From contig PABP01000034.1 of the NCBI GenBank assembly GCA_002699585.1, forward strand, positions 1-64,000: 64,000 nt of DNA. Reading direction: 5' to 3'. Below are positions 3 through 44,274 of the stretch, piece after piece (the stretch's first letter is position 1; every line of letters begins with the position of its first letter). Under the pieces are notes generated by a model, which was not told the DNA's origin, did not search any database, and saw only the letters and a list, made by a program, of their open reading frames with translations. Source of the stretch: Anaerolineaceae bacterium (GTDB lineage Bacteria; Chloroflexota; Anaerolineae; Aggregatilineales; Phototrophicaceae). A program made the translations under genes and the position numbers.

Positions 3-224
3 GCCGACGACCTGACGCAGTTGCCGTATGTGGTGCGTCTGTCGCGCTTCGCTCGTCGGTTGATTAAAGAGAACGTGGCCTTTAGCTTCGGCGTTAAGCT
101 GGTGTTCTTGGTGCTGGCCTTCTTCGGCCTGACCTCGCTCTGGATTGCGATCCTGGCTGATGTGGGTATGGCGTTGCTGGTGACGCTCAACGGCATGCGT
201 CCGCTCAGGTACGAGGTGGAATAG
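3..224 (+). CDS. Heavy-metal P-type ATPase, C-terminal end (partial)
   Basis: This is the last 73 codons of a gene that begins before the window. The visible peptide has an SRFARRLIKEN-type segment followed by two hydrophobic stretches and ends LNGMRPLRYEVE. That is the usual tail of P1B-type metal-exporting ATPases (CadA/ZntA/CopA group), in which the last two membrane helices carry the DVG...LLV.LN.(M/L)R signature. It would sit in the cytoplasmic membrane and pump metal ions out using ATP. The catalytic DKTGT and the metal-site CPx motif lie outside the window, so the metal cannot be assigned. Confidence 0.8.
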   Translation, partial: ADDLTQLPYVVRLSRFARRLIKENVAFSFGVKLVFLVLAFFGLTSLWIAILADVGMALLVTLNGMRPLRYEVE

Positions 225-347
225 TCCGCTAAGTGTAGAAATCCTATAAAACTTCGATGTGTCGCAGGACGATTGTCTGCGGCACTTTTTGTATTTCTGT
301 ATACTGCAAACGTGGGTTACTCTGTCAAATTATTGAGGATTTTGACC

Positions 348-1640
348 ATGAAGCAGATAAAAGTGCTTGCGCTTTGTTTGGGTCTACTCCTGATTTTCGC
401 ATCCAGTTCGTTTGTTCTTGCCCAGGATGACCAGGCGGATATGATTTTTTACAATGGCACGATTCTGACAATTGCAGGCGATGTGTCCGAGTGGGAACAA
501 GAAGCACTAGCCGTGCAGGGTGACGAAATCCTGGCGGTGGGATCGCTGGGTGATATTGAGTCTATGGCGACATCGGAAACCCAATGGATTGACCTGGATG
601 GGCGCACGTTGATGCCGGGTATCGTTGACCCGCATACGCACATGCTCAATGACTATGGGGGTTCGCTGGACGAAGCTATGAAATTCATCTTGCAAAATGG
701 CTACACCACCATTGGCAACGCCTATTCTGATGAGTCTTTCGTTCGGGACATGGTTGCGTTAGATGCAGCCGGTGGAGTAAGCGTCCGCACAACGCTGTAT
801 ATGACGGCGAATGATAACTGCGGGTCGGTCTTCGGTAACTGGTGGGCGGACTTCCCACCCACATTTGATCCTGATGACATGTTACGTACCAGCGGCGTCA
901 AGATCTTCGCAGATGGCGGTACCTGTGGCTCGCCTGCGCTTTCGTATATAGATGAACCGCCGTTCCTGTCGGAAGAACTCGCTGTGGACTTGGTTCAAAC
1001 GGCAGATGATCTGGGTTATCAGGTATTGTTCCATGCCATTGGCGATAAAGCCATTGATGTGGCGTTGCAGGCCATCAATGCAGTTAATGGCGGTGGCCCG
1101 AATACGATGCGTCATCGCATTGACCATAATGCGGTCACGCGACCCGATCAGATTCCGCTGTACGGGGCCTATGATATTGTGACAGTCGTGTTTGCTTCAT
1201 TTTCATTCTGTGAAGCGGAGCCGACGGATTACACCATTTGGGAATGGCGCTGGCGAGATCTTCTGGCAACGAATCCGGGTTTGCACATGACGTGGCATGG
1301 CGATTGGCCCTGGGTCAGTACGGCCAATCCCTTTGAGTCGTTATACAGCATGGTCACGCCATTTGAGATCAGTGTCGCAGGCGAGTGCCCAACTCCGGCC
1401 TTCTTGACAGCCAAGCAGCTCCCAGTTGAGACAGTACTGCGCATGATGACTAGCGAAGCGGCCTATGCGCTGTTCCGCGAGAATGATGTGGGCACACTGG
1501 AATCGGGCAAGTTCGCCGACATGATCGTCATTTCAGCCAATCCAATGGCGGTGGCCCCGGCGGACATCAAGGACATTGATATTCTGGCGACGTATGTCGG
1601 TGGGGAAGCGTTATTCTGCACTGAGGCATTCTGTAGTTAG
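348..1640 (+). CDS. Exported amidohydrolase (amidohydrolase family 3 / YtcJ-like)
   Basis: A 430-residue metal-dependent hydrolase. The start at 348 gives a clean signal peptide (basic MKQIK, hydrophobic core, cleavage near VLA-QDD); a longer in-frame reading from 273 adds no recognisable sequence. The protein shows NGTILTIAG near the N-terminus, the metal-binding HTH pair at residues 96-98, FHAIGDKAIDVAL, HRIDHN and a C-terminal ESGKFADMIVI strand, all typical of the amidohydrolase-3 family. It is about 100 residues shorter than usual YtcJ-like proteins, the shortfall lying after the HxH motif. It acts outside the membrane on an unknown amide or cyclic substrate. A rho-independent hairpin follows the stop. 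Confidence 0.8.
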   Translation: MKQIKVLALCLGLLLIFASSSFVLAQDDQADMIFYNGTILTIAGDVSEWEQEALAVQGDEILAVGSLGDIESMATSETQWIDLDGRTLMPGIVDPHTHMLNDYGGSLDEAMKFILQNGYTTIGNAYSDESFVRDMVALDAAGGVSVRTTLYMTANDNCGSVFGNWWADFPPTFDPDDMLRTSGVKIFADGGTCGSPALSYIDEPPFLSEELAVDLVQTADDLGYQVLFHAIGDKAIDVALQAINAVNGGGPNTMRHRIDHNAVTRPDQIPLYGAYDIVTVVFASFSFCEAEPTDYTIWEWRWRDLLATNPGLHMTWHGDWPWVSTANPFESLYSMVTPFEISVAGECPTPAFLTAKQLPVETVLRMMTSEAAYALFRENDVGTLESGKFADMIVISANPMAVAPADIKDIDILATYVGGEALFCTEAFCS

Positions 1641-1663
1641 CCACGACAAGTCATGTAGAATGC

Positions 1664-1696
1664 AAAAGGTCGGTCCAGTGGATCGGCCTTTTTTGT
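1664..1696 (+). terminator. Rho-independent terminator after the amidohydrolase
   Basis: AAAGGTCGGTCC and GGATCGGCCTTT pair across a 3-nt loop, with G-T wobbles, and are followed by a T run. It lies 25 nt after the stop at 1640 and before the convergent gene ending at 1709. Confidence 0.7.
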
Positions 1697-1708
1697 TGCC
1701 ACGAGCGC

Positions 1709-2713
1709 TTAAGAACGGGTCGCTTCCACAACCTCGTAGTACCAGCTATACAGGTCTTCAGGCGTGAGGGTGGCCAATTTGTCTTTGTCCAGCACAACCG
1801 CGTCCTCGGTTACGGAAACGCACAGGTTAAAAGGCGCAAGGTTGAGCATGTTCATACCAGCGACCTGCTGCCAGTCTGCAAGCGGCATGGACTGTTTTTC
1901 GATGAGCAGGGTGAGCAGATCATAGAAGAAGCGCTGCGTCACGTTGACAGGGTAGGGCTTGTCGGACATCGACACGATGTAGGCATCCACTTCCTGCCAG
2001 ACCGCGCTAATGTGCCTCTGGCGGCGTTTGACGTTTTCCATATCCGGTGACACATGGCCCAGTAGTTGCACCAGACGCTCCGGCCAGTGCTCTGGCGTCC
2101 AGGCCAATGTCCGGCTCATATGGATCAGCCATTTTTCATGGGCGATGAACTCGCCATTGGCCATGTAGACCGCCTTGACCAGTTCCGTAACGGCCTGATT
2201 GAGCATCATGTGTGCCTGGAGCGGATCATCACGGTAAATCCAGATGTCGCCGGCCAGCTTATAGTGCCACCACGCGCTGAATAGCACGCCACCTGCATCC
2301 ATTGGCTTTGGCCGATACTGCTCATTGTGTGCCAGCAATGTGGCGATTTTACCGGATGGGTCATAGAGCACCTGGCTGTAGGAGGCATCCCAACGCGCAT
2401 CATCGGACCAGGTTGCGACATCCTCTGTGGCGAGGTCGACATGCTTGATGTCGTAGAGCATGCCATCAAAGCGCTGGATGCCCACGCCGAAAGGCGCGTG
2501 TCCCTGCTGCCAGTGCTGGTAAGTATCGGAGTGCAGGTAAAACGTGATGTCAATCTCTGACAGATGGTCGCCATACCCGCGTGCGAGGCCACCGTTGAGT
2601 GTTAACCCGACCACACCCGGTGGCCCGGTAAATTGGGGCAAGTGGCTGTCTAAATGGGCCAGGAGGGCATCTATCTGATTGGGCTTGTTGATTTGGACGC
2701 GGGGACGACTCAA
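1709..2713 (-). CDS. Nucleotidyltransferase-like protein (DUF4037-type)
   Basis: A 334-residue soluble protein. Residues about 37-60 read GLTLNGGLARGYGDHLSEID, which fits the GG-x-S/A...D-x-D active-site loop of the polymerase-beta/MNT nucleotidyltransferase fold, followed by a second acidic patch. The C-terminal two thirds are helical, with WWHYKLAGDIWIYR and GEFIAHEKWLIHMSR, as in kanamycin-nucleotidyltransferase-like and DUF4037 proteins. The substrate is unknown; transfer of an AMP group to a small molecule or protein is only a family-level guess. It is transcribed alone, convergent with the amidohydrolase. Confidence 0.6.
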   Translation of the reverse strand: MSRPRVQINKPNQIDALLAHLDSHLPQFTGPPGVVGLTLNGGLARGYGDHLSEIDITFYLHSDTYQHWQQGHAPFGVGIQRFDGMLYDIKHVDLATEDVATWSDDARWDASYSQVLYDPSGKIATLLAHNEQYRPKPMDAGGVLFSAWWHYKLAGDIWIYRDDPLQAHMMLNQAVTELVKAVYMANGEFIAHEKWLIHMSRTLAWTPEHWPERLVQLLGHVSPDMENVKRRQRHISAVWQEVDAYIVSMSDKPYPVNVTQRFFYDLLTLLIEKQSMPLADWQQVAGMNMLNLAPFNLCVSVTEDAVVLDKDKLATLTPEDLYSWYYEVVEATRS

Positions 2714-4653: not shown

Positions 4654-7600
4654 TTATGACTGGCTTTGACGACGGCGGCCAGCAACCCAGACGCCGATCA
4701 GCAGCAGGATGAGCAGCAGGCCCGCGGCCCACGGCAGCAGTTCAACGAAGGTCGATTGGGCGAAGCTGAAGGGCACCGACTGCGTCAGTGTTTCCCCGGC
4801 TTCGTTCTCGACGGTGACGTCAAGCTGATGTTCACCGATGCCGATTTCGTCACGGCTGAGCGTGAAGCTGAACGGGACGATGTTGCCATTGGTGTAGGGT
4901 TCGTCATCAACGGCGATTTCGATGCTTGTCACCGGGAGCTGGTCCTCGGCCAGGGTGATGGTCACCTCGCGCGTGTCGTCTTCGATGGCTTCATCCAGGT
5001 TGAGCGACTCGATGCTGAAGGCCAACTGTGGCGCGGGTGGCTCCGGCGTGATGAACAGAGCTTCATCGACGGTGAAGGGGATCGATTCCGTAAGCGATTC
5101 CTCAGCTTCGTTCACGACCGTAACATCCAGCGTATGGGCGCCGGCACCCAACCCGATCAGGTCAAGTTCGTAAGAGTAGGGCAGGCTGTCGCTGCTGTCG
5201 ACTTCTTCGCCATCCAGCGCGATGCTGACCGATGTCGCCGGGGACTGGCCTTCTGGCTGGTCAATATCGACCGTCAGTGTGCCATCAGAGATCATGTCAT
5301 CAGCAGCCAGCCCGGTGATGTTGAACGACAGCGGAACAGGGGTTTCGCTGGGTTCTTCGGTCGGTGTGGCTGTTGGCTCAGACGTATCGGTTGCCGTTGG
5401 CTCTGCGGTATCGGTTGGTTCGTCGGTATCTGTGGCCGTTGGCTCTTCCGTGTCAGTCGGTTCCTCCGTATCCGTGGGTTCTTCTGTGTCGGTCGGCTCT
5501 TCGGTATCGGTTGCTGCCTGGGCGACCTGAGCAGACACGGCTGCTTCATCCACGATGAAGGCGTTGGTTGTGGTGGTTTCATCGCCATCCACGCTGGTGA
5601 CGACAATATCCAGGATATGGGCACCGCCACCTGCTTCGGCCATATCGAGGTCGAAAGTGTAGGGTGGTTCGGTCAGGGTGGCGACTGTTTCGCCATCAAG
5701 CACGAATTCGACGGATTCAATGTCAGGTTGGTCGGCACCTATCGTGACTTCGATGGTGCGCGTCCCGTCAGTGATCGTCTCTCCGCTGCTGATGCCTGTG
5801 ATGTCAAAAGTCAGCGGCGTACCCGTTGAGGTTGATGTCGCGGTTTCGGTATCCGTCGCGGTCGGTTCCTCGGTATCGGTGGCCGTTTCGGTATTCGTGG
5901 CCGTTTCAGTGTTCGTGGCCGTTTCAGTGTTCGTGGCCGTTTCAGTGTTCGTGGCCGTCTCGGTGTTGGTGGCCGTTTCCGTATCGGTCGCGGTTTCCGT
6001 GTCCGTTGGTTCTTCCGTATCGGTTGCGGTTGGCTCCGGCGTGTCCGTCGGTTCTGGTGTATCTGTCGGCTCCGGTGTATCCGTAGCCGTTGGTGATGGC
6101 GTACTGGTCGCAGTCGCGGTGGCTGTCGGTGACGGCGTAGCCGTGTTGGTGGGTGTCGGTGTGTTGGTTGGCGTATCGGTCGGCGTCACATAGAGCTGCG
6201 GATTGAAGGAGAAATCCAGCGATTGGGATGCAGCTTCGCCCTGGGCATTGATGACAACAGCTTCAAGGGTATGCGTCCCGGCGCCGACATCGACGTTATC
6301 AATGACAAACGAATAGGGTGCTTCAGTCAGCGTAGCCTGTTCGTCGCCATCAATCAGGTAGGTGACGGACTCAATGCCGACCTGAGCCTGGTTGACGTTG
6401 ACCGCAACGGCAATCGCTGCGTCGCTGATGACATCGCCGCTGGCCAGATTGTCGAAGGTGAAGGTGGTCGGTACACTGCCCACCTGATATTCGCGGCTGA
6501 CAGCGCGCACGCCGCCTTGCTGATCGGTGCCTTCGATGGTGATGTCGTAGGTGCCGGGGGCCAGCGTTAGCGGGTCGATGACGATATCGCCAGTGGCGCT
6601 GTTGCCATCGTCGGCCATGGTGTAATTGCTGAGTTCAGCGGGGCCGCCAGCAGATGATGATGCGACCAGATCGCCCACGCCGCGTACGGCGTCAATGGCG
6701 GCGCTGATAGTGGTTGTTTCTGTAATGGGGCCATCGGGCACGCCATCGAGCGTCACGACTGGGTACAAGTCCTGCGACGTGTACTGGCCTGTTGCCGACG
6801 CATCGTCCACGCTAAGGGTGATGTCATAGGTTGAGCCATCCGGTTCCAGATCGGGCGCAATGGTGACGATGTACTGGCTGCGTAAATAGCCGGAAATGAA
6901 GCTGAAGATGCTATCCAGATTTTCACTATCCGGTGTGATGAAGGCTTCGCCGTTGGAGTTAGCCGCCAGCGTTTCCAGATAGGGTGCGTTGACGTCAAAA
7001 CCCAGGCCGATGACGAAGAACGGAATGCCGTTTTCCATCGCCAGCAGTTGGGCGGCTTCTGCCGGGTTGGTGCTTAGTTCGCCGTATTCGTTGCCATCCG
7101 TCAATAGGATGACGAAGCGGCGCGGGTTGTTGGCTGTCAGGGCGGTTTCTACACCGGCGTTGGCGGCGTCATACAGCCGCGTCTGACCGCCAGCGAATAG
7201 CCCATCGATGGCGCTGCGGGCGGATTCAATGTCGGAGGTGAAGGGTTGGACCACGCGCACCCCATTGTCGAAGTCGATAACGGCGACTTCATCTTGAGTA
7301 CGCAGGTTGTCGAGCAAGATGCCCGCTGCCGCTTTGGTGTCAATCATCGGCGTTTCGAACATGCTCTGGCTGCTGTCCAACACCATGACCACGGAAACGG
7401 CCAGGTCGTTGTTGACTAGCTCTTCAACACTGACAATTTCCGTGTTGCGGCCATCGGCCAGGGCGCTAAAGTCCTCGGCAGTCAGGCCATTAATGGGCTG
7501 TTGCAGCGCATTTTCCACCGTGACCAGCAACCGTAATTCAGGGTCGTTGGTGCCATCGATGGTGTTAATTGTGATGGTGCTTGCACTTTGAGTGGTGTCC

Positions 7601-7683
7601 TGGGCTGTGACGATGGCTACCAGACCGAACAGCAGCACACTCGTCAGCAACCAGATGAACTTGCTTTGCTTTAGGCTTCGCAT
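4654..7683 (-). CDS. Large secreted VWA-domain surface protein with Thr-rich repeats
   Basis: A 1009-residue extracytoplasmic protein. A signal peptide (MRSLKQSK then a hydrophobic core, AQD cleavage) is followed by a von Willebrand A domain with a complete MIDAS start, DSSQS at residues 103-107, and LLTDGNEYG further on. After it come repeated Ig-like beta domains, each with a GISSGETITDG or GLAADDMISDG-like strand and an SVDG/ALDG turn. Two Thr/Asp/Glu-rich linkers, built of TDTEEPT and TATNTE units, separate them. A single C-terminal membrane helix (LLPWAAGLLLILLLIGVWVAG) and a basic tail anchor it. It probably binds protein or matrix ligands through a metal ion. The repeated DNA of the linkers may change length by slippage. 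Confidence 0.85.
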   Translation of the reverse strand: MRSLKQSKFIWLLTSVLLFGLVAIVTAQDTTQSASTITINTIDGTNDPELRLLVTVENALQQPINGLTAEDFSALADGRNTEIVSVEELVNNDLAVSVVMVLDSSQSMFETPMIDTKAAAGILLDNLRTQDEVAVIDFDNGVRVVQPFTSDIESARSAIDGLFAGGQTRLYDAANAGVETALTANNPRRFVILLTDGNEYGELSTNPAEAAQLLAMENGIPFFVIGLGFDVNAPYLETLAANSNGEAFITPDSENLDSIFSFISGYLRSQYIVTIAPDLEPDGSTYDITLSVDDASATGQYTSQDLYPVVTLDGVPDGPITETTTISAAIDAVRGVGDLVASSSAGGPAELSNYTMADDGNSATGDIVIDPLTLAPGTYDITIEGTDQQGGVRAVSREYQVGSVPTTFTFDNLASGDVISDAAIAVAVNVNQAQVGIESVTYLIDGDEQATLTEAPYSFVIDNVDVGAGTHTLEAVVINAQGEAASQSLDFSFNPQLYVTPTDTPTNTPTPTNTATPSPTATATATSTPSPTATDTPEPTDTPEPTDTPEPTATDTEEPTDTETATDTETATNTETATNTETATNTETATNTETATNTETATDTEEPTATDTETATSTSTGTPLTFDITGISSGETITDGTRTIEVTIGADQPDIESVEFVLDGETVATLTEPPYTFDLDMAEAGGGAHILDIVVTSVDGDETTTTNAFIVDEAAVSAQVAQAATDTEEPTDTEEPTDTEEPTDTEEPTATDTDEPTDTAEPTATDTSEPTATPTEEPSETPVPLSFNITGLAADDMISDGTLTVDIDQPEGQSPATSVSIALDGEEVDSSDSLPYSYELDLIGLGAGAHTLDVTVVNEAEESLTESIPFTVDEALFITPEPPAPQLAFSIESLNLDEAIEDDTREVTITLAEDQLPVTSIEIAVDDEPYTNGNIVPFSFTLSRDEIGIGEHQLDVTVENEAGETLTQSVPFSFAQSTFVELLPWAAGLLLILLLIGVWVAGRRRQSQS
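5350..5520. repeat. Degenerate 18-bp tandem repeats coding for TDTEEPT units
   Basis: A run of related 18-nt units coding on the minus strand for repeated (T/A)DTEEPT / ATDTDEPT sequence in the second linker of the VWA protein. Units differ mostly at third positions, so the repeat is older or more diverged than the one at 5879-5985. Confidence 0.7.
5879..5985. repeat. Near-perfect 18-bp tandem repeats coding for ATNTET units
   Basis: The unit GTGGCCGTTTCAGTGTTC (plus strand) occurs about five times, three or four of them identical, coding on the minus strand for repeated ETATNT. The identity at synonymous positions points to recent expansion by slippage or unequal exchange, inside the first Thr-rich linker of the VWA protein. 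Confidence 0.85.
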
Positions 7684-8785: not shown

Positions 8786-8849
8786 ACAGCGCTGGCGTTA
8801 GATATTGACCTGGGGACAACCTGTTACAAGAGAGAGAAATCGATCCTTC

Positions 8850-10988
8850 ATGATGCGATCTTGGTTACGTTGGCCACGTTTATTAGCTGTGATACTCGTC
8901 ACGCTGGCGGTGATTCTGGGTGTTTTGCTAGTCGCGCTCATCGCGCACTACAATTCGCAGCGGGACCAGCTATTGCAGCAGGCCTTTAGCTCGGCACAGA
9001 CGCAAGCGTTTGATGCCGCGCGTACAATCAGCAGCACGTTTGCGGATGTGATGGCCATTGCCAGCGATGTATCGTTCGATTTGACCACAGGCGATTTGCC
9101 ATACGCCGACATCACCGAGCGCCTGTACGACGAAGTCGAAGCTCACCCGGATATCGACGGACTGGCGATTACGTTCCAGCCGTTTGTTTACGATCCTGCC
9201 GAACCACTGTATCAGGAGTACATCTACAAGACGCCGGAAGGCACCTTCGATACGCTGATTGGCGCGTCCTATGACTACAGTCAGCCGCCCACTGATGCCC
9301 CGGATTCGCCACAAACGGCATGGTATCACGGGCCGTTGAACAATGGCCCCATGTGGAACGAGCCGTTCTTCGCTACAGGTGCGCAAAAAGTCCTGATTGA
9401 GTTTGGCATTCCGTTTTATCAAGAGATTGACGACGAGCGCATTGCTGCCGGGGTGGTCACGATTGACTATTCTGTGGCCGATATGCGCGATCTGGTAGCT
9501 GGATTGAACCTGGGTGCGACCGGCTACGGCTTCGTTATTTCCCCCAGTGGCACAATCCTGGCGCATCCGGTGCCGGACCTGGTGGCCACACAGACTATCT
9601 TCGACTATGCCGAGTCTATTGATAATGAAACCCTGGCCGATGCCTCCCAGCGCGCCCTGGCTGGCGAACAGGTCACGCTTGAGCTGGTCGATAACCTGAC
9701 AGGGGAGGCATCCTGGCTGTTCATGGAACCTGTCCCCATGACCGACTGGGCGCTGGGTGTGGTGCTCAACCGGGCAGAATACGCGCCGGACTCCAAGCAG
9801 ACGCTCCGTGAGCAGACGACCATTCTGCTGGTGGCGGCGGTGCTGCTGCTGATCGCCATCTCGCTGCTGGTGCGGCTGCATCGTGGGCGGCGGCGAGCGC
9901 TATGGGCCGTATCGGTCGCCTTTTCGCTGATCGGCATTGTGCTGATTGTGGCGGTATGGTACCTGGCTGATTTATGGAGCGGGCCGAGTGGCGTGATTAA
10001 GATCACCAGCCAGACAGCACTCGATAGCTACTTGACCAATTACGAAGAACGCAGCCAGATCGCCAATGGTGAGCGTCCTCTGCGCGTCCCGACGGGGGTT
10101 TTTGTGCAGGCGGTCCAGTTCCCGGACCCCATGTCAGTGACGGTCAATGGCTATATCTGGCAGCGCTACCCGGTGGATAGCGACGTGCCGCGCGGCTTCT
10201 CTCTGCCGCAACGCATCGGCGAGGAAGCCACCCTGGAAGAAGTCCATCGTGAGGTGCAGGACGATGAGGAACTCATCATCTGGTATATAGGTGTGACGCT
10301 GCGCCAACTCTTTGATCCACAGCGTTATCCCTTCGACAGCCGCGACGTGACCATCCGCCTGATGCCGATGGCACTTGCGGAAAATATCGTGCTGACACCC
10401 GACCTGGAGAGCTACGCGCTGGTCAGTCCGGGGCTGCTACCCGGGCTGGATATCGACGTGGGCGTTAACAACTGGAATATGGAAAACAGCGCCTTTAGCT
10501 ATGCGGAAGTGACCTATAACAGCACGCTCGGCCTGTCACAGCGGGCGAATTACACACAGTTACCGGAACTGCGTTTTACGATTGCCGCTCAGCGTTATGT
10601 GATCGGACCGTTTATCGCCTATTTGCTGCCGGGGATGGTAGCAGCCATGATGCTGTTCGCCTTCCTGGTCAACGAGCATGACCCCGGCGAGAAAGCCGAA
10701 CTCAGTGAAGCGTTGAATTATGCCGCTGCGTTGTTCTTCGTGATCGCGGTGGCGCATACGGCCCTGCGCGATGGCATCGCCGCCGTTGGCCTGACGTATC
10801 TTGAGCACCTATACATTCTGTTGTATATCACCATTATCGCCATCGGCCTGAATACCTATGTGCTGGTCAAACAGCCTAAGGCATGGATCGTGCAGTATCA
10901 GAACAACTTGATCGTTAAGCTGCTGTTCTGGCCGATGCTGATCGGCGCGCTGCTGGTATCGACGCTGGCCGTGTTCGTCTACGGGTAG
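8850..10988 (+). CDS. Double-Cache sensor fused to a pentameric ligand-gated ion channel-like domain
   Basis: A 712-residue membrane protein. The start at 8850 follows an AGAGAGA Shine-Dalgarno; a TTG reading from 8805 is less likely. A helix at residues 10-32 is followed by an extracellular double-Cache/PDC region (about 35-305: AWYHGPLNNGPMWNEPFF, AAGVVTIDYS, GYGFVISPSGTILAHP). Two helices (323-343, 352-374) are joined by a short basic loop (RGRRR). A beta-rich region (375-580) then contains RYPFDSRDVTIRL at 492-504, matching the loop before the conserved beta strand of pLGIC ligand domains. Four helices close the protein: M1 with a central Pro (583-607), M2 containing FFVIAVAHTAL (622-640), M3 (651-674) and M4 (688-711). 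The order and the AH in M2 resemble bacterial GLIC-type channels. Both sensory domains would be extracytoplasmic. No kinase, cyclase or chemotaxis output domain is present. Confidence 0.75.
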   Translation: MMRSWLRWPRLLAVILVTLAVILGVLLVALIAHYNSQRDQLLQQAFSSAQTQAFDAARTISSTFADVMAIASDVSFDLTTGDLPYADITERLYDEVEAHPDIDGLAITFQPFVYDPAEPLYQEYIYKTPEGTFDTLIGASYDYSQPPTDAPDSPQTAWYHGPLNNGPMWNEPFFATGAQKVLIEFGIPFYQEIDDERIAAGVVTIDYSVADMRDLVAGLNLGATGYGFVISPSGTILAHPVPDLVATQTIFDYAESIDNETLADASQRALAGEQVTLELVDNLTGEASWLFMEPVPMTDWALGVVLNRAEYAPDSKQTLREQTTILLVAAVLLLIAISLLVRLHRGRRRALWAVSVAFSLIGIVLIVAVWYLADLWSGPSGVIKITSQTALDSYLTNYEERSQIANGERPLRVPTGVFVQAVQFPDPMSVTVNGYIWQRYPVDSDVPRGFSLPQRIGEEATLEEVHREVQDDEELIIWYIGVTLRQLFDPQRYPFDSRDVTIRLMPMALAENIVLTPDLESYALVSPGLLPGLDIDVGVNNWNMENSAFSYAEVTYNSTLGLSQRANYTQLPELRFTIAAQRYVIGPFIAYLLPGMVAAMMLFAFLVNEHDPGEKAELSEALNYAAALFFVIAVAHTALRDGIAAVGLTYLEHLYILLYITIIAIGLNTYVLVKQPKAWIVQYQNNLIVKLLFWPMLIGALLVSTLAVFVYG

Positions 10989-31291: not shown

Positions 31292-32263
31292 ATGGCAAGT
31301 GATATTTACCCGACAAGCGACATGGACCAGGGATTAAGTGGCCCGGTTGTTATCAATCGACCCATGAAGGGTTTGCCGAGCCTCAACCTGCATGAGTTGT
31401 GGATTTATCGCTATTTGCTCTTCTACATTGTCCGGCGTGATATTGTTGTCCGCTACAAGCAGACGGTCTTTGGTATTTCCTGGGCGGCCATCAATCCACT
31501 GATTACGATGGTGGTTTTCTCATTTGTGTTTGGTGCGCTCCTCAATGTAGATACCAGCGGCGTACCTTATCCATTGTTCAGTTTGGCGGCACTGGTTCCC
31601 TGGGCGATGTTCGCTAAGGGGCTATCGAACTCATCTGTCAGCATTCAGTCCAATTCCAACATCATCACAAAGATTTACTTCCCACGTATCATCGCGCCAA
31701 TTTCTGCGTTTACGAACAGTTTCATTGACTTTGTGGTTTCATTAGCGGTTTTGCTGTTGATGATCCTGGGGTATGTGCTGTTGGCCCCGGATTTAATCGG
31801 TGTTGTGCCTCCAGATGCCACACCTGAGGTGATAGAAGCAGCTAGCCAGGTTCGTATCTTTGGACCTGGCCCGGTAGCTATCCTGATGCTGCCATTGTTT
31901 ATCCTACTGGTGGTGATGTTTGGCTTGGGGCTTGGTTTCTGGTTCAGCGCTTTGCAAGTGCGTATGCGCGACATCAACTACATCATTCCTTTTGTATTAC
32001 AAATTGGCCAATATGTGACGCCGGTTGCTTATGCCAGCAATATGATCGAGACTTTGTCGGGTGCTGGTGGCGAAGTCTGGCAATTTTTGTATGGCCTTAA
32101 TCCTATGGTCACTGCGATTGATGGCTTCCGCTGGGCCTTTTTCAATTTAGATTTTTCCCCTGTGCCGACGATTATTGCGTCAGTCAGCATGTGTCTTTTT
32201 GTTTTCTTCAGTGGGCTGTATTTCTTCCGGTATTCTGAATCCAAGTTTGTGGATTATCTGTAG
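31292..32263 (+). CDS. wzm: ABC-2 polysaccharide exporter permease
   Basis: A 323-residue integral membrane protein with six hydrophobic segments. The start region YRYLLFYIVRRDIVVRYKQT precedes the first helix, and GISWAAINPLITMVVFSFVF is characteristic of ABC-2 permeases of the Wzm/TagG group that export undecaprenyl-linked polysaccharides. It is followed by its ATPase partner after 87 bp. No Wzt C-terminal binding module genes or O-antigen ligase are present, so the exported polymer is unknown. Confidence 0.85.
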   Translation: MASDIYPTSDMDQGLSGPVVINRPMKGLPSLNLHELWIYRYLLFYIVRRDIVVRYKQTVFGISWAAINPLITMVVFSFVFGALLNVDTSGVPYPLFSLAALVPWAMFAKGLSNSSVSIQSNSNIITKIYFPRIIAPISAFTNSFIDFVVSLAVLLLMILGYVLLAPDLIGVVPPDATPEVIEAASQVRIFGPGPVAILMLPLFILLVVMFGLGLGFWFSALQVRMRDINYIIPFVLQIGQYVTPVAYASNMIETLSGAGGEVWQFLYGLNPMVTAIDGFRWAFFNLDFSPVPTIIASVSMCLFVFFSGLYFFRYSESKFVDYL

Positions 32264-32350
32264 AGTCTGCCGATATAGACTATCTATAGAACTTCTGAGA
32301 AGGACGACCATCGTAGTGTCGGACCAAACGTTAAAGCAATAGGAACCAAC

Positions 32351-41835: not shown

Positions 41836-41922
41836 GCAAAAACCCGCCCTTGCTAAACATCCTGACCCCTTGTAAACTCCTCTGTCCCCTTAATGACAAC
41901 CGTACCAAAAAGGATATGCACG

Positions 41923-44274
41923 ATGATTGTCGGCATGGACTTTGGCACCACCAACAGCGGCATGGCGGTGTACGACGGTGGTGAATTGCGTTTTGTGCCC
42001 CTGGACCCGGCCAATCGCAATCCACATGTGGCGCGCACGGCGCTGTACATCACGACGGACAACGAGGTCTACCTGGGCAGTCAGGCGACCGCCAAGTACT
42101 ACGAGCAAAACCTCAATCGGCCCTTTAAGCTGGACAAAGTGTGGGTCGGTGAAGTCGAAATGACCTTTGCCGAAATTGGCACCTTCATCCGCGATGTATT
42201 CATTGAAAAAGACGTTTACGCCCCCGGTCGGCTGTTCCGCTCCTTCAAGATGGGCCTGTCCTCGCTCAACTACCTGGGGACCATCGTCGGCACCGATTAC
42301 TATTATTTAGAAGACATCATCGCCGTGTACCTGCATATCGCCAAACGGCGCGCAGAGGCCCACTTGGGCCACAGCCTGGATACGATTGTGCTGGGGCGTC
42401 CGGTGCGTTTTACGGATGATGAAACACACAACGCGCTAGCCCAGGAACGGCTGTTGCAGGCGGCTTACCGCGCCGGATATAAGCGCGTCTATTTTCAGTA
42501 TGAGCCGATTGCCGCTGCCCAGTTTTACGCGCAGACTGTCGATAGGGCCGAGAATGTGCTCATCTTCGACTTTGGCGGCGGTACGCTAGACCTGAGTGTG
42601 CTGCACATCGCCCCGGATGGCACGCGCGAGGTATTGGCGACGGGCGGTATTGCCATTGCCGGTGATGTCTTCGACCGCAAGATCGTCCGTGCCAAATTCC
42701 CGCCGCACTTCGGCGAAGGTAGTACCTACCGCAGCCGAGGCCGTGATTTGCCCGTGCCGCCCAGTTTCTTCGATGCCTTCACCAACTGGCAGGAACTACT
42801 CATGTTGCAAATGCCGGATACGATGGAGCGCTTGCAGCAGATCGCCCGCAGTGCCAGTGACCCGCGCCGCCTCAATGCCCTCATTAGTCTGATTGGGTCC
42901 TTCGCCGCTTTGCAGATGTTCGACATCGCCGAAGGGGCCAAGCGCCAGCTATCTGGAAGTTTGCGGGCCTCATTGAGCATGACGGGCAAGGGCTATACTG
43001 TGCTGGATGCCATCACCCGCAGCGAATTTGAGCGCCTCATTCGGCCAGAAGTCCGGGCTATCGAAGAACGCATTGACGACTTGCTCACGTCCAGCGGCCT
43101 GCGCGATGACCAGATCGACGTGGTGATCCGCACAGGGGGCTCCTCGCAGATCCCGGCTTTCATCAATATGCTCAACAGCCGCTTTGGTGAGGCCAACGTG
43201 CGTGAGGTCGATGCCTTCAGCAGTGTGACCGCTGGCCTGGGCATCGTCGCCCACCAGATTGAGCAGGGTAGGTCGGATATTCCGTATCATACGCCTGCCA
43301 CCAGTTCCCCGCCGGATTACCTGGCTGAAAAGCAACAAGGGGGCGTTCCGGTGCTGGACCTGGAGCGTATGTTGCAGTTCATCCAGATACAGGAGCAGCG
43401 CGAGCGAACCGGTCCGGCGCAGCAAATGCTGGCCCTGGTGGGTGAGGATGACCGTCTGCGAGCGTATGGCGAAAGCGACGATAAGATCGACCTGGAGACA
43501 GCGGCTTATTTCCTGGGGGCGGCCTCTGGCGATGCCAAGCACATCCTGATGACCACCGACTACCGCTTTCTGACCAAGTCCCTGCGCCAACTGGCGGACT
43601 GGCGCGAAGTGGGCATCCAGCTAGAAGAAGTTGAGCGCTTCCGCAGCGATAAATTCAGCAGCGAGCGCGTGTGTGGCATCCAGGCCTGGGACCCGTTGGC
43701 CAATTCGGAGCACATCTTCTTCATGACGACCCTCGGCTACGGTCGGCTGATGCCTGCCGACTCGCTGTTGACCAAATTGGGCCAGCCTGTGCCGTATCAG
43801 ATGAAAGCCTCGCGCGGGTTCCCGGCGGCACTGCTGCCCGTGCAATCCACAGGCGAAATCGTCATTCTCAGTCAGGCTGGACGCGCGATTCGGGTGGCTG
43901 TCAGCGACTTGTCGCGCATCGAACAACGCTTGCTGGCGGTCCCGCTGCGTAGTGGGGTGGTTGGGGCGGTCGCTGTCGATCAGCCGGGGACACTGCTGCT
44001 AGTGACAGCCAGTGGCTACGCCAAACGCATCGCTACATCGGCCATTCCGCTGATGACCGAACCCAGCACCAACGGCACCAAAATCCTGACTCGCGCCAAT
44101 CCGCTGCTGCCGATGCTCTATCAGCCGGACCGCGACCTTGTGGTCATCACCAACCAGCGCCGTGTGACAGTTCCCGGTGATGACATCCCCCAGAGCGACC
44201 TCAACAAGACCGATCACAAGCTGCTGAACCTGGGCAAGGGCGAGCGCGTCGTCGGCGTGTATTTCGCTAGCTAG
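41923..44274 (+). CDS. Hsp70-family ATPase fused to GyrA-CTD-like beta-propeller
   Basis: 783 residues from the ATG at 41923, which has AAAGGA about 9 nt upstream; an in-frame ATG at 41893 is less likely. Residues 1 to about 440 are a YegD-like Hsp70 nucleotide-binding domain: MIVGMDFGTTNSGMAV, IFDFGGGTLDLSVL near 212 and IRTGGSSQIPAF near 403. There is no standard substrate-binding domain. From about 535 to the end are repeated strands such as HIFFMTTLGYGRLMP, EIVILSQAGRAIRVAVSDL, LLLVTASGYAKRIATSAI and LVVITNQRRVTVPGDDIP. They have the (L/V)(L/V)xxTxxGxxxR pattern of DNA gyrase A C-terminal blades, which bind and wrap DNA. This would link an ATP-driven chaperone domain to a DNA-binding propeller. 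It is cytoplasmic. Confidence 0.8.
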   Translation: MIVGMDFGTTNSGMAVYDGGELRFVPLDPANRNPHVARTALYITTDNEVYLGSQATAKYYEQNLNRPFKLDKVWVGEVEMTFAEIGTFIRDVFIEKDVYAPGRLFRSFKMGLSSLNYLGTIVGTDYYYLEDIIAVYLHIAKRRAEAHLGHSLDTIVLGRPVRFTDDETHNALAQERLLQAAYRAGYKRVYFQYEPIAAAQFYAQTVDRAENVLIFDFGGGTLDLSVLHIAPDGTREVLATGGIAIAGDVFDRKIVRAKFPPHFGEGSTYRSRGRDLPVPPSFFDAFTNWQELLMLQMPDTMERLQQIARSASDPRRLNALISLIGSFAALQMFDIAEGAKRQLSGSLRASLSMTGKGYTVLDAITRSEFERLIRPEVRAIEERIDDLLTSSGLRDDQIDVVIRTGGSSQIPAFINMLNSRFGEANVREVDAFSSVTAGLGIVAHQIEQGRSDIPYHTPATSSPPDYLAEKQQGGVPVLDLERMLQFIQIQEQRERTGPAQQMLALVGEDDRLRAYGESDDKIDLETAAYFLGAASGDAKHILMTTDYRFLTKSLRQLADWREVGIQLEEVERFRSDKFSSERVCGIQAWDPLANSEHIFFMTTLGYGRLMPADSLLTKLGQPVPYQMKASRGFPAALLPVQSTGEIVILSQAGRAIRVAVSDLSRIEQRLLAVPLRSGVVGAVAVDQPGTLLLVTASGYAKRIATSAIPLMTEPSTNGTKILTRANPLLPMLYQPDRDLVVITNQRRVTVPGDDIPQSDLNKTDHKLLNLGKGERVVGVYFAS

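Follow-up and report, generated by a model that had tools for sequence, protein, structure and literature searches.

A Predicted Fusion of a Double Cache Sensor to a Divergent Pentameric Ligand-Gated Channel-Like Module in a Chloroflexota Bacterium

Introduction

What would a label such as "membrane protein" conceal if, in a single bacterial chain, a chemical sensor had been placed in front of the fold of an animal nerve ion channel? The question is raised by a gene at positions 8850-10988 (forward strand) of a 64,000-nucleotide stretch of DNA from an Anaerolineaceae bacterium of the Chloroflexota (contig PABP01000034.1, assembly GCA_002699585.1), the whole of which is hereafter called the window. 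An initial annotation, made from the sequence alone, had described the 712-residue product as an extracellular Cache sensor fused to a pentameric ligand-gated ion channel (pLGIC). Our analysis confirms what that annotation observed and partly supports how it was interpreted. The protein very probably joins a double Cache sensor, held outside the membrane, to a divergent relative of animal nerve ion channels. At a probability of roughly 0.7, we regard it as a subunit of a pentameric, Cache-fronted channel from a divergent clade of prokaryotic pLGICs; within this reading, the pentamer, conduction, the main ligand-binding domain and the direction of coupling are what we infer.

The Fusion Gene

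The frame opens with ATG, an earlier TTG at 8805 being a possible alternative start, and it remains open for all 712 residues of the chain originally described. Its product finds no second match in its own 6.7 Mb genome (E <= 0.01). From the N terminus, this chain passes through a transmembrane (TM) helix, a double Cache domain, a second TM helix, a short basic loop, a third TM helix, a beta-rich domain and, finally, four further TM helices. Homologues in other Chloroflexota genomes are approximately 40-58% identical to it, a level of conservation which indicates that the observation is more than chance. Moreover, the fusion recurs in both Chloroflexota and Vibrio, which argues against an assembly chimera; explanations by frameshift chimera or assembly artefact were considered and rejected because the fusion is present in independent genomes. 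The features described below all lie on the forward strand.

The Cache Sensor

The sensor half occupies residues 35-311 (8952-9782), marginally more than the residues 35-305 first assigned to an extracellular double Cache domain, and the assignment itself is upheld by profile, sequence, fold and conservation. Among Pfam families, dCache_1 matches with an E of 2e-11, its 44.4 bits falling slightly below the curated cut-off of 45, while MCP-like_PDC_1 (E 2.1e-8, 35 bits) exceeds its cut-off of 27 and Cache_3-Cache_2 matches at E 1e-6. Solved dCache domains agree with this, 3lib matching in sequence (E 5.9e-10) and 3li9 in fold (E 1.5e-14). The half has the double Cache fold, a position outside the membrane and the long N-terminal helix of dCache_1 sensors, this helix spanning residues 7-80 in a full-length AlphaFold2 (AF2) model.

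Conservation was followed in an alignment of 19 proteins, 17 of which hold the Cache region (L007 and L010 being cut or broken at one end); of the remaining two, L047 is devoid of a Cache domain and L025 is cut by the end of its contig. When positions are mapped by alignment to Mlp24, T156 (16/17), W158 (17/17), Y159 and D206 (16/17, with N in Vibrio) fall on known dCache motif sites. Two other positions, W169 (17/17) and E184 (16/17), are also conserved, and our own alignment places E184 near the pocket. That the ligand-motif positions are kept across Chloroflexota and Vibrio points to a genuine, conserved Cache ligand.

For the possible nature of this ligand, two described motifs were compared. 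The amino-acid motif (dCache_1AA, in PctA numbering) consists of an aromatic Y121 and R126 before a WY pair, plus D173 (PMC10104139, PMC11245519). W158, Y159 and D206 supply part of it, and the motif as a whole is absent, P151 standing at the equivalent of Y121 and T156 at that of R126. An amino-acid ligand was thus considered and is unsupported, since the carboxyl-binding Arg is replaced by Thr. The second motif, that of the amine sensors (dCache_1AM, as in PctD), includes two aromatics, a terminal D, hydrophobic and Ser positions, an upstream Trp and an R/D pair (PMC10104139, PMC11245519). Here the aromatics and D206 are present and E184 seemingly lies near the Ser position, the other positions not being confidently placeable. 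Judged from its sequence, then, the Cache domain holds a conserved set of pocket-like positions falling outside the amino-acid definition, and its two acidic positions may hint at a cationic ligand.

The Channel-Like Half

The evidence that the second half belongs to the pLGICs is chiefly structural. An AF2 model of the channel part, built from 16 family sequences only and without templates, runs from a helix through beta strands to four TM helices, with a mean pLDDT (predicted local distance difference test) of 67.5 and block means of 79-89 over model residues 61-140. Searched against the PDB with Foldseek, it yields 973 matches at E <= 0.001, the best being GLIC, the proton-gated pLGIC of Gloeobacter (E 6.6e-12); the 50 matches listed are all GLIC, ELIC, a GABA-A receptor or GLIC chimeras. 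VIA-align superposes it on GLIC with a Z of 15.9 and a root-mean-square deviation of 5.4 over 275 residues, in a match that spans model residues 59-363 and hence covers the extracellular and membrane parts, and again all 50 listed matches are pLGICs or pLGIC chimeras. The structural match foreseen for residues 375-712 is therefore found: as modelled, these residues show a clear pLGIC fold, in which a beta-sandwich extracellular domain is followed by four TM helices, the confidence of the latter being low. By predicted fold, the channel half is a pLGIC.

In the model, a helix at residues 388-406 (10011-10067) precedes the first strand, where pLGIC extracellular domains have their N-terminal helix. 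The beta domain itself comprises residues 411-583 (10080-10598) and leads to M1 (residues 587-607; 10608-10670), the putative pore helix M2 (615-640; 10692-10769; model helix 268-293), M3 (648-674; 10791-10871; model helix 301-327) and M4 (687-711; 10908-10982; model helix 340-364).

Sequence comparison supports the same assignment, with the similarity to GLIC lying mainly in the extracellular part. Using hhalign, three family alignments (A2, A4 and A5) match GLIC with probabilities of 85.8, 70.9 and 79.5 and E values of 5.4e-6, 3.8e-5 and 1.5e-5, respectively. In our own runs, the corresponding scores of 47.2, 45.9 and 47.8 compare with best shuffled scores of 27.4, 28.2 and 26.7, taken from 200 shuffles per alignment in which the extracellular and TM parts were shuffled separately; reversed GLIC scored 15.9-17.1. 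A bridge of intermediate sequences leads in the same direction, as the family profile reaches a more distant Chloroflexota relative, L041 (E 7.6e-5; hhalign probability 91.5), and L041 in turn reaches Azospirillum proteins (E 2e-7), one of which passes the cut-off of PF02931 (Neur_chan_LBD).

The signature residues are also in place. The pLGIC-type motif noted by the initial annotation in the second extracellular region is real: RYPFDSRDVTIRL forms residues 492-504, and the YPFD within it (residues 493-496; 10326-10337) corresponds to the aPaD signature in the Cys/Pro-loop. All 19 aligned proteins have P494 and D496, and between them, at residue 495, 17 have F and two have L. W437, close to the end of the second modelled strand, is present in every one of the 17 proteins with letters there, the Vibrio protein L048 being gapped at that position and L025 being without the region. 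R582 (10593-10595) and, within M1, P594 are invariant as well (19/19 each), and a proline in M1 is usual among pLGICs. The aPaD residues, a Trp at the end of strand 2 and a basic residue before M1 are all among the signature features described by Tasneem et al. (2004; PMC549065).

Membrane Topology

A simple hydropathy scan finds seven TM segments, at residues 13-31, 325-343, 351-369, 589-607, 621-639, 655-673 and 692-710. TM1 (8886-8942) continues into the long N-terminal Cache helix, and TM2 (9822-9878) returns the chain to the cytoplasm, where a short loop of residues 344-350 (9879-9899) carries four K/R and no D/E. TM3 (9900-9956) is the anchor helix preceding the ligand-binding-like domain, and its equivalent is the helix with which L047 starts. 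Exactly seven segments were found in 8 of the 11 Cache-type members scanned, the other three (L003, L008 and L013) having one extra weak segment within the globular part. In the window protein, the N terminus and the TM2-TM3 and M3-M4 loops are all net positive, which places the Cache and beta domains both outside, and the topology proposed in the initial annotation, with its basic inside loop and two external sensory domains, accordingly finds support in the scan.

Weighing the Channel Reading

A number of observations pull against the reading of this protein as a channel. The full-length AF2 model is good in its Cache part and poor in its channel part, for which reason the C-terminal part was modelled alone; its 50 listed fold matches concern the Cache part, each being a dCache domain or a bigger receptor or channel subunit that contains one. 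Even in the separate model, pLDDT falls to about 48-67 in the TM block and 42-76 in the later beta domain. The Neur_chan profile match that had been anticipated did not appear in residues 348-712 or in 12 relatives (PF02931/PF02932; 0/13 members), Pfam and NCBIfam returned nothing relevant for the channel part, and hmmsearch of the PDB with family profiles A2 and A5 found no pLGIC. The alignment of A5 to a canonical Legionella pLGIC, L049, is weak (probability 27.6, E 6.5e-4), and the membrane part alone gives no significant match to GLIC, L049, L041 or the Azospirillum protein (E 0.1-0.29); TM homology consequently rests on topology and the model. With respect to topology, the M1-M2 loop, inside in the proposed layout, is net acidic (1 K/R, 5 D/E), contradicting the positive-inside rule, and in most relatives the basic character of the TM2-TM3 loop is weaker. 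Lastly, M2 is very hydrophobic and has the conserved R640 near its outer end, which makes conductance and selectivity no more than putative.

The lack of any Neur_chan match, together with the lack of a PDB pLGIC found by sequence profile, could be taken to mean that the C-terminal half is an unrelated beta domain joined to a four-helix membrane protein, with the motif arising by chance. This we strongly disfavor as very improbable: every listed fold match, across both domains, is a pLGIC or a chimera of one, hhalign scores against GLIC stand well above all 200 shuffles in each of the three alignments, and the signature residues occur in the correct order. Indeed, PF02931 detects both L049 (E 1.5e-9) and an Azospirillum protein (E 7.8e-7, above cut-off) and none of the 13 members, which marks the family as divergent. 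The missing match is a matter of detectability and not a defining trait of the fold.

A further question concerns M2. This helix is hydrophobic, with F629, F630, H636 and R640 invariant in all 19 proteins. The initial annotation had read an AH pair "as in GLIC" here, and this comparison is not supported: H636 is invariant, A635 is found in only 6 of the 19, and MAFFT sets the pair four columns nearer the outer M2 end than that of GLIC, in a register that is uncertain since the TM alignment is not significant. Given this uncertainty, we make no claim as to ion selectivity. The adjacent invariant phenylalanines and the invariant H and R near the outer end are atypical for an open pore, no acidic ring stands at one fixed place immediately ahead of M2 (just 2/19 have E at position 620), and TM similarity to known channels is not significant, all of which would suit a receptor of pLGIC fold that no longer conducts. 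In such a receptor, the Cache and beta domains would form a pentameric sensor, and the membrane part would signal to a partner protein or act as a scaffold. We consider such a receptor unlikely. Few parts of the protein are as well conserved as M2 and the M2-M3 region, 16/19 proteins have an acidic residue at position 617, the longest inside loop of the window protein measures 18 residues and thus offers no long cytoplasmic domain for a partner, and no partner gene is conserved among the compared loci.

Proposed Mechanism

If the Cache-fronted channel is the correct reading, its opening is most likely driven or tuned by a small molecule bound to the Cache domain. Each subunit of the presumptive pentamer would have seven TM helices, of which TM1 and TM2 would keep the Cache domain outside the membrane. 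An inside basic hairpin loop would connect TM2 to TM3, and TM3 would lead out into the pLGIC-type extracellular domain; M1-M4 would make the pore, with M2 lining it. By analogy with the presumed working of Cache receptors, binding of the small molecule may shift the TM1 and TM2 helices, and the TM2-TM3 hairpin, or direct contact, could relay this shift to the channel so as to open, close or tune it. Both a ligand and ion flow are thus predictions for the window protein.

A more specific version of this proposal can be offered only tentatively, as we would sooner bet against it than for it. It holds that a separate, unnamed pLGIC clade of Chloroflexota, Vibrio and a cyanobacterium, typified by an N-terminal anchor helix, has had a chemoreceptor front end (TM1-dCache-TM2) added to it. 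The Cache signal would then cross the membrane via the TM2-TM3 hairpin, the pentamer would contain 35 TM helices, and the agonist site would be the Cache pocket and not the pLGIC subunit interface.

Family and Distribution

The distribution of the family in Chloroflexota is patchy. Relatives of residues 375-712 occur in 9 of 400 genomes taken across the phylum, in 7 of 154 from the window's order and in 3 of 61 among near relatives, the window's own genome being included in each count; the sole other genome of its genus is without the gene. One Chloroflexales family is positive in 10 of 41 genomes, among them G476, of a periplasmic binding protein (PBP) type, and G198, a broken reading. In the G198 locus (L010/L011), the reading frame is interrupted close to the gene's end, which makes it either a pseudogene or an assembly error. 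A profile search of the 400 genomes at E <= 0.1 added only weak or unrelated matches; among the weak ones (L034-L037 and L039, E 0.002-0.08), L034, L035, L037 and L039 were rejected because they belong to unrelated proteins or to a short frame. A contig scan found no relative when a single protein was used and, with an alignment, 11 loci among 191 candidate stretches, all of them from Chloroflexota and some coinciding with loci in the genomes (G) already counted. L024 lies in G419, a genome that shares the window's family, and encodes the same protein as L012 (Anaerolineae bacterium ES-bin-76). PF02931 was positive in 0 of 301 Chloroflexota genomes, a figure that does not demonstrate absence, as the control was positive in 0 of 14 named genomes.

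Outside the phylum, relatives were found in four plasmid records, three from Vibrio and one from Acaryochloris marina. The protein of Vibrio sp. THAF191d (L048) has the full TM-Cache-TM-TM-beta-4TM layout, and the two other Vibrio records are 100% identical to its channel part over 89% of the length. The Acaryochloris protein (L047) has TM-beta-4TM and a tail, with no Cache domain. In L041 (G476, Chloroploca family; 28-2469 (+), 814 residues), a Peripla_BP_6 domain lies before a related, divergent pLGIC-like part, and no TM pair separates sensor from channel part. These Cache-less and Peripla_BP_6-fused relatives suggest that the channel part is a unit fronted by different sensors.

The same relatives lend weight to a variant of the Cache-fronted reading in which it is the beta domain that truly senses the ligand, while the Cache domain merely concentrates the ligand, clusters the channel or modulates it, a role that Tasneem et al. 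proposed for fusions of this kind (PMC549065). The channel part exists without a Cache domain in Acaryochloris and with a periplasmic binding domain instead in Chloroflexales, and DeCLIC has an N-terminal domain that influences gating (PMC9897478). Speaking against the variant is the persistence of the motif-aligned Cache positions (T156, W158 and D206), along with E184, at the frequencies given above, which points to a genuine Cache ligand. On balance the variant strikes us as improbable, albeit a somewhat better prospect than a receptor that does not conduct.

Viral sequences contributed little. A search of viral contigs with A5 gave 133 candidate stretches, none of them confirmed, and a phage collection gave a single weak, Cache-only match. 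MT835478.1, labelled Bacteriophage sp. and derived from human faeces, has a Cache-like stretch at 31715-32290 (26% identity, E 1e-7).

Gene Neighborhoods

No conserved operon was seen in 12 Chloroflexota loci (the window and L012-L022, some shortened by contig ends), and neighbors are shared only between near relatives. The single exception is a regulator-like gene pair of 28-29% identity, located several kb from the channel gene in L014 and L016 and less far away in L017. Within the window, the Cache-channel gene is flanked on one side by genes for a VWA-domain protein and a helix-hairpin-helix protein and on the other by those for a protein without a Pfam match and a sulfotransferase, all on the opposite strand. 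In the product of the frame at 4654-7683 (-), VWA and bacterial Ig-like domains are accompanied by very long repeat linkers rich in Thr, Pro and Glu, and the C terminus looks by eye like a membrane anchor. Farther away, 41893-44274 (+) encodes a 793-residue protein with an Hsp70-type ATPase domain, the C-terminal part of which resembles a beta-propeller only weakly (DNA_gyraseA_C, E 8.4e-8, with no single stretch passing).

Transport genes accompany some relatives. In Vibrio, the Cache-channel gene overlaps by four bases the end of a short permease-like frame (of ATP-binding cassette type by eye, with no Pfam match), which lies behind the gene for an SBP_bac_3 protein; the three overlap by four bases each, forming an apparent operon (L048:1472-5723 (+), Vibrio sp. 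THAF191d). In L020 (7507-12127), genes for the tripartite ATP-independent periplasmic (TRAP) transporter proteins DctQ, DctM and DctP, as assigned by Pfam, follow the Cache-channel gene, and its near relative L021 has close homologues of all three in the same place. In L012 (5127-5721 (+)) and L024, a second, divergent copy of the TM-Cache front lies directly behind the first Cache-channel gene and is cut by the contig end. This copy may represent a second subunit, in which case heteromers would be possible.

Comparison with Known Systems

Fusions of this kind have a precedent. Tasneem et al. (2004) described prokaryotic acetylcholine receptor-type ligand-gated ion channels (ART-LGICs) preceded by MCP-N and Cache domains, from Methanosarcina, Cytophaga and Microbulbifer, and proposed a role in chemoreception (PMC549065). 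Since Cache-channel fusions were reported there, the initial annotation's presentation of the union as unusual fails as a claim of novelty. The window protein, with a Cache-type sensor N-terminal to a pLGIC ligand-binding domain and four TM helices in one chain, is instead a well supported example of a known and apparently uncharacterized kind. A search for literature joining Cache with pLGIC or Cys-loop wording brought up the 2004 prediction, a paper on a Campylobacter chemoreceptor and no study of function or structure, which is weak evidence of absence given partial coverage that would miss other wording; a term search of the text of a later survey of pLGIC evolution (PMC4795631) did not find the word "cache."

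What is new is the divergent clade itself, unseen by Pfam, with its seven-helix layout, its Cache-less and PBP-fused relatives and its family-specific Cache positions. Pfam, in other words, misses a real clade of pLGIC-fold proteins. Ligand catalogues for Cache domains are growing, and the window protein is a good test case for the predicted Cache-channel fusions. A Cache-gated channel, if true, would tie a defined metabolite to ion flow, provide a natural chemosensor-channel fusion for engineering and bear on how pLGICs gained their ligands.

The Cache ART-LGICs of Tasneem et al. resemble the window protein in having a Cache domain before the pLGIC ligand-binding domain and four-helix module, the aPaD motif and a basic residue before M1. 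They were found, however, by profile searches seeded with animal receptors, whereas the window family is invisible to PF02931 and PF02932. The TM pair around the Cache domain and the third anchor helix of the window family go unmentioned for them in the portion consulted, the comparison being one of descriptions (PMC549065). The same source describes bacterial ART-LGICs fused to PBP-I domains, a theme into which L041 fits. Distantly related to the channel part of the window protein, L041 is a putative PBP-fused channel of this 2004-described kind in a phylum that the consulted text does not mention. The Vibrio SBP_bac_3 neighborhood similarly recalls the PBP-II neighborhoods there described for prokaryotic ART-LGICs.

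GLIC shares the fold of both the extracellular and membrane parts and gives a significant profile match in the former, but it has no sensor module in front, is only 12-18% identical to the window protein in the listed structure alignments and has its M2 AH pair at another place. DeCLIC is a prokaryotic pLGIC with an extra N-terminal module outside the membrane that influences gating; that module consists of two beta jelly-roll lobes packed on the extracellular domain (PMC9897478), whereas that of the window protein is a Cache domain flanked by TM helices of its own. Finally, the dCache_1 chemoreceptors and histidine kinases (such as 3LIB, PctA and Mlp24) share the sensor fold, the WY aromatics and, in D206, the equivalent of D173, while the carboxyl-binding Arg of their amino-acid motif is Thr in the window protein. 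Another difference lies in what the sensor addresses: in these receptors the output is a kinase or methyl-accepting chemotaxis protein (MCP) signaling domain, and in the window protein it is a channel-like module.

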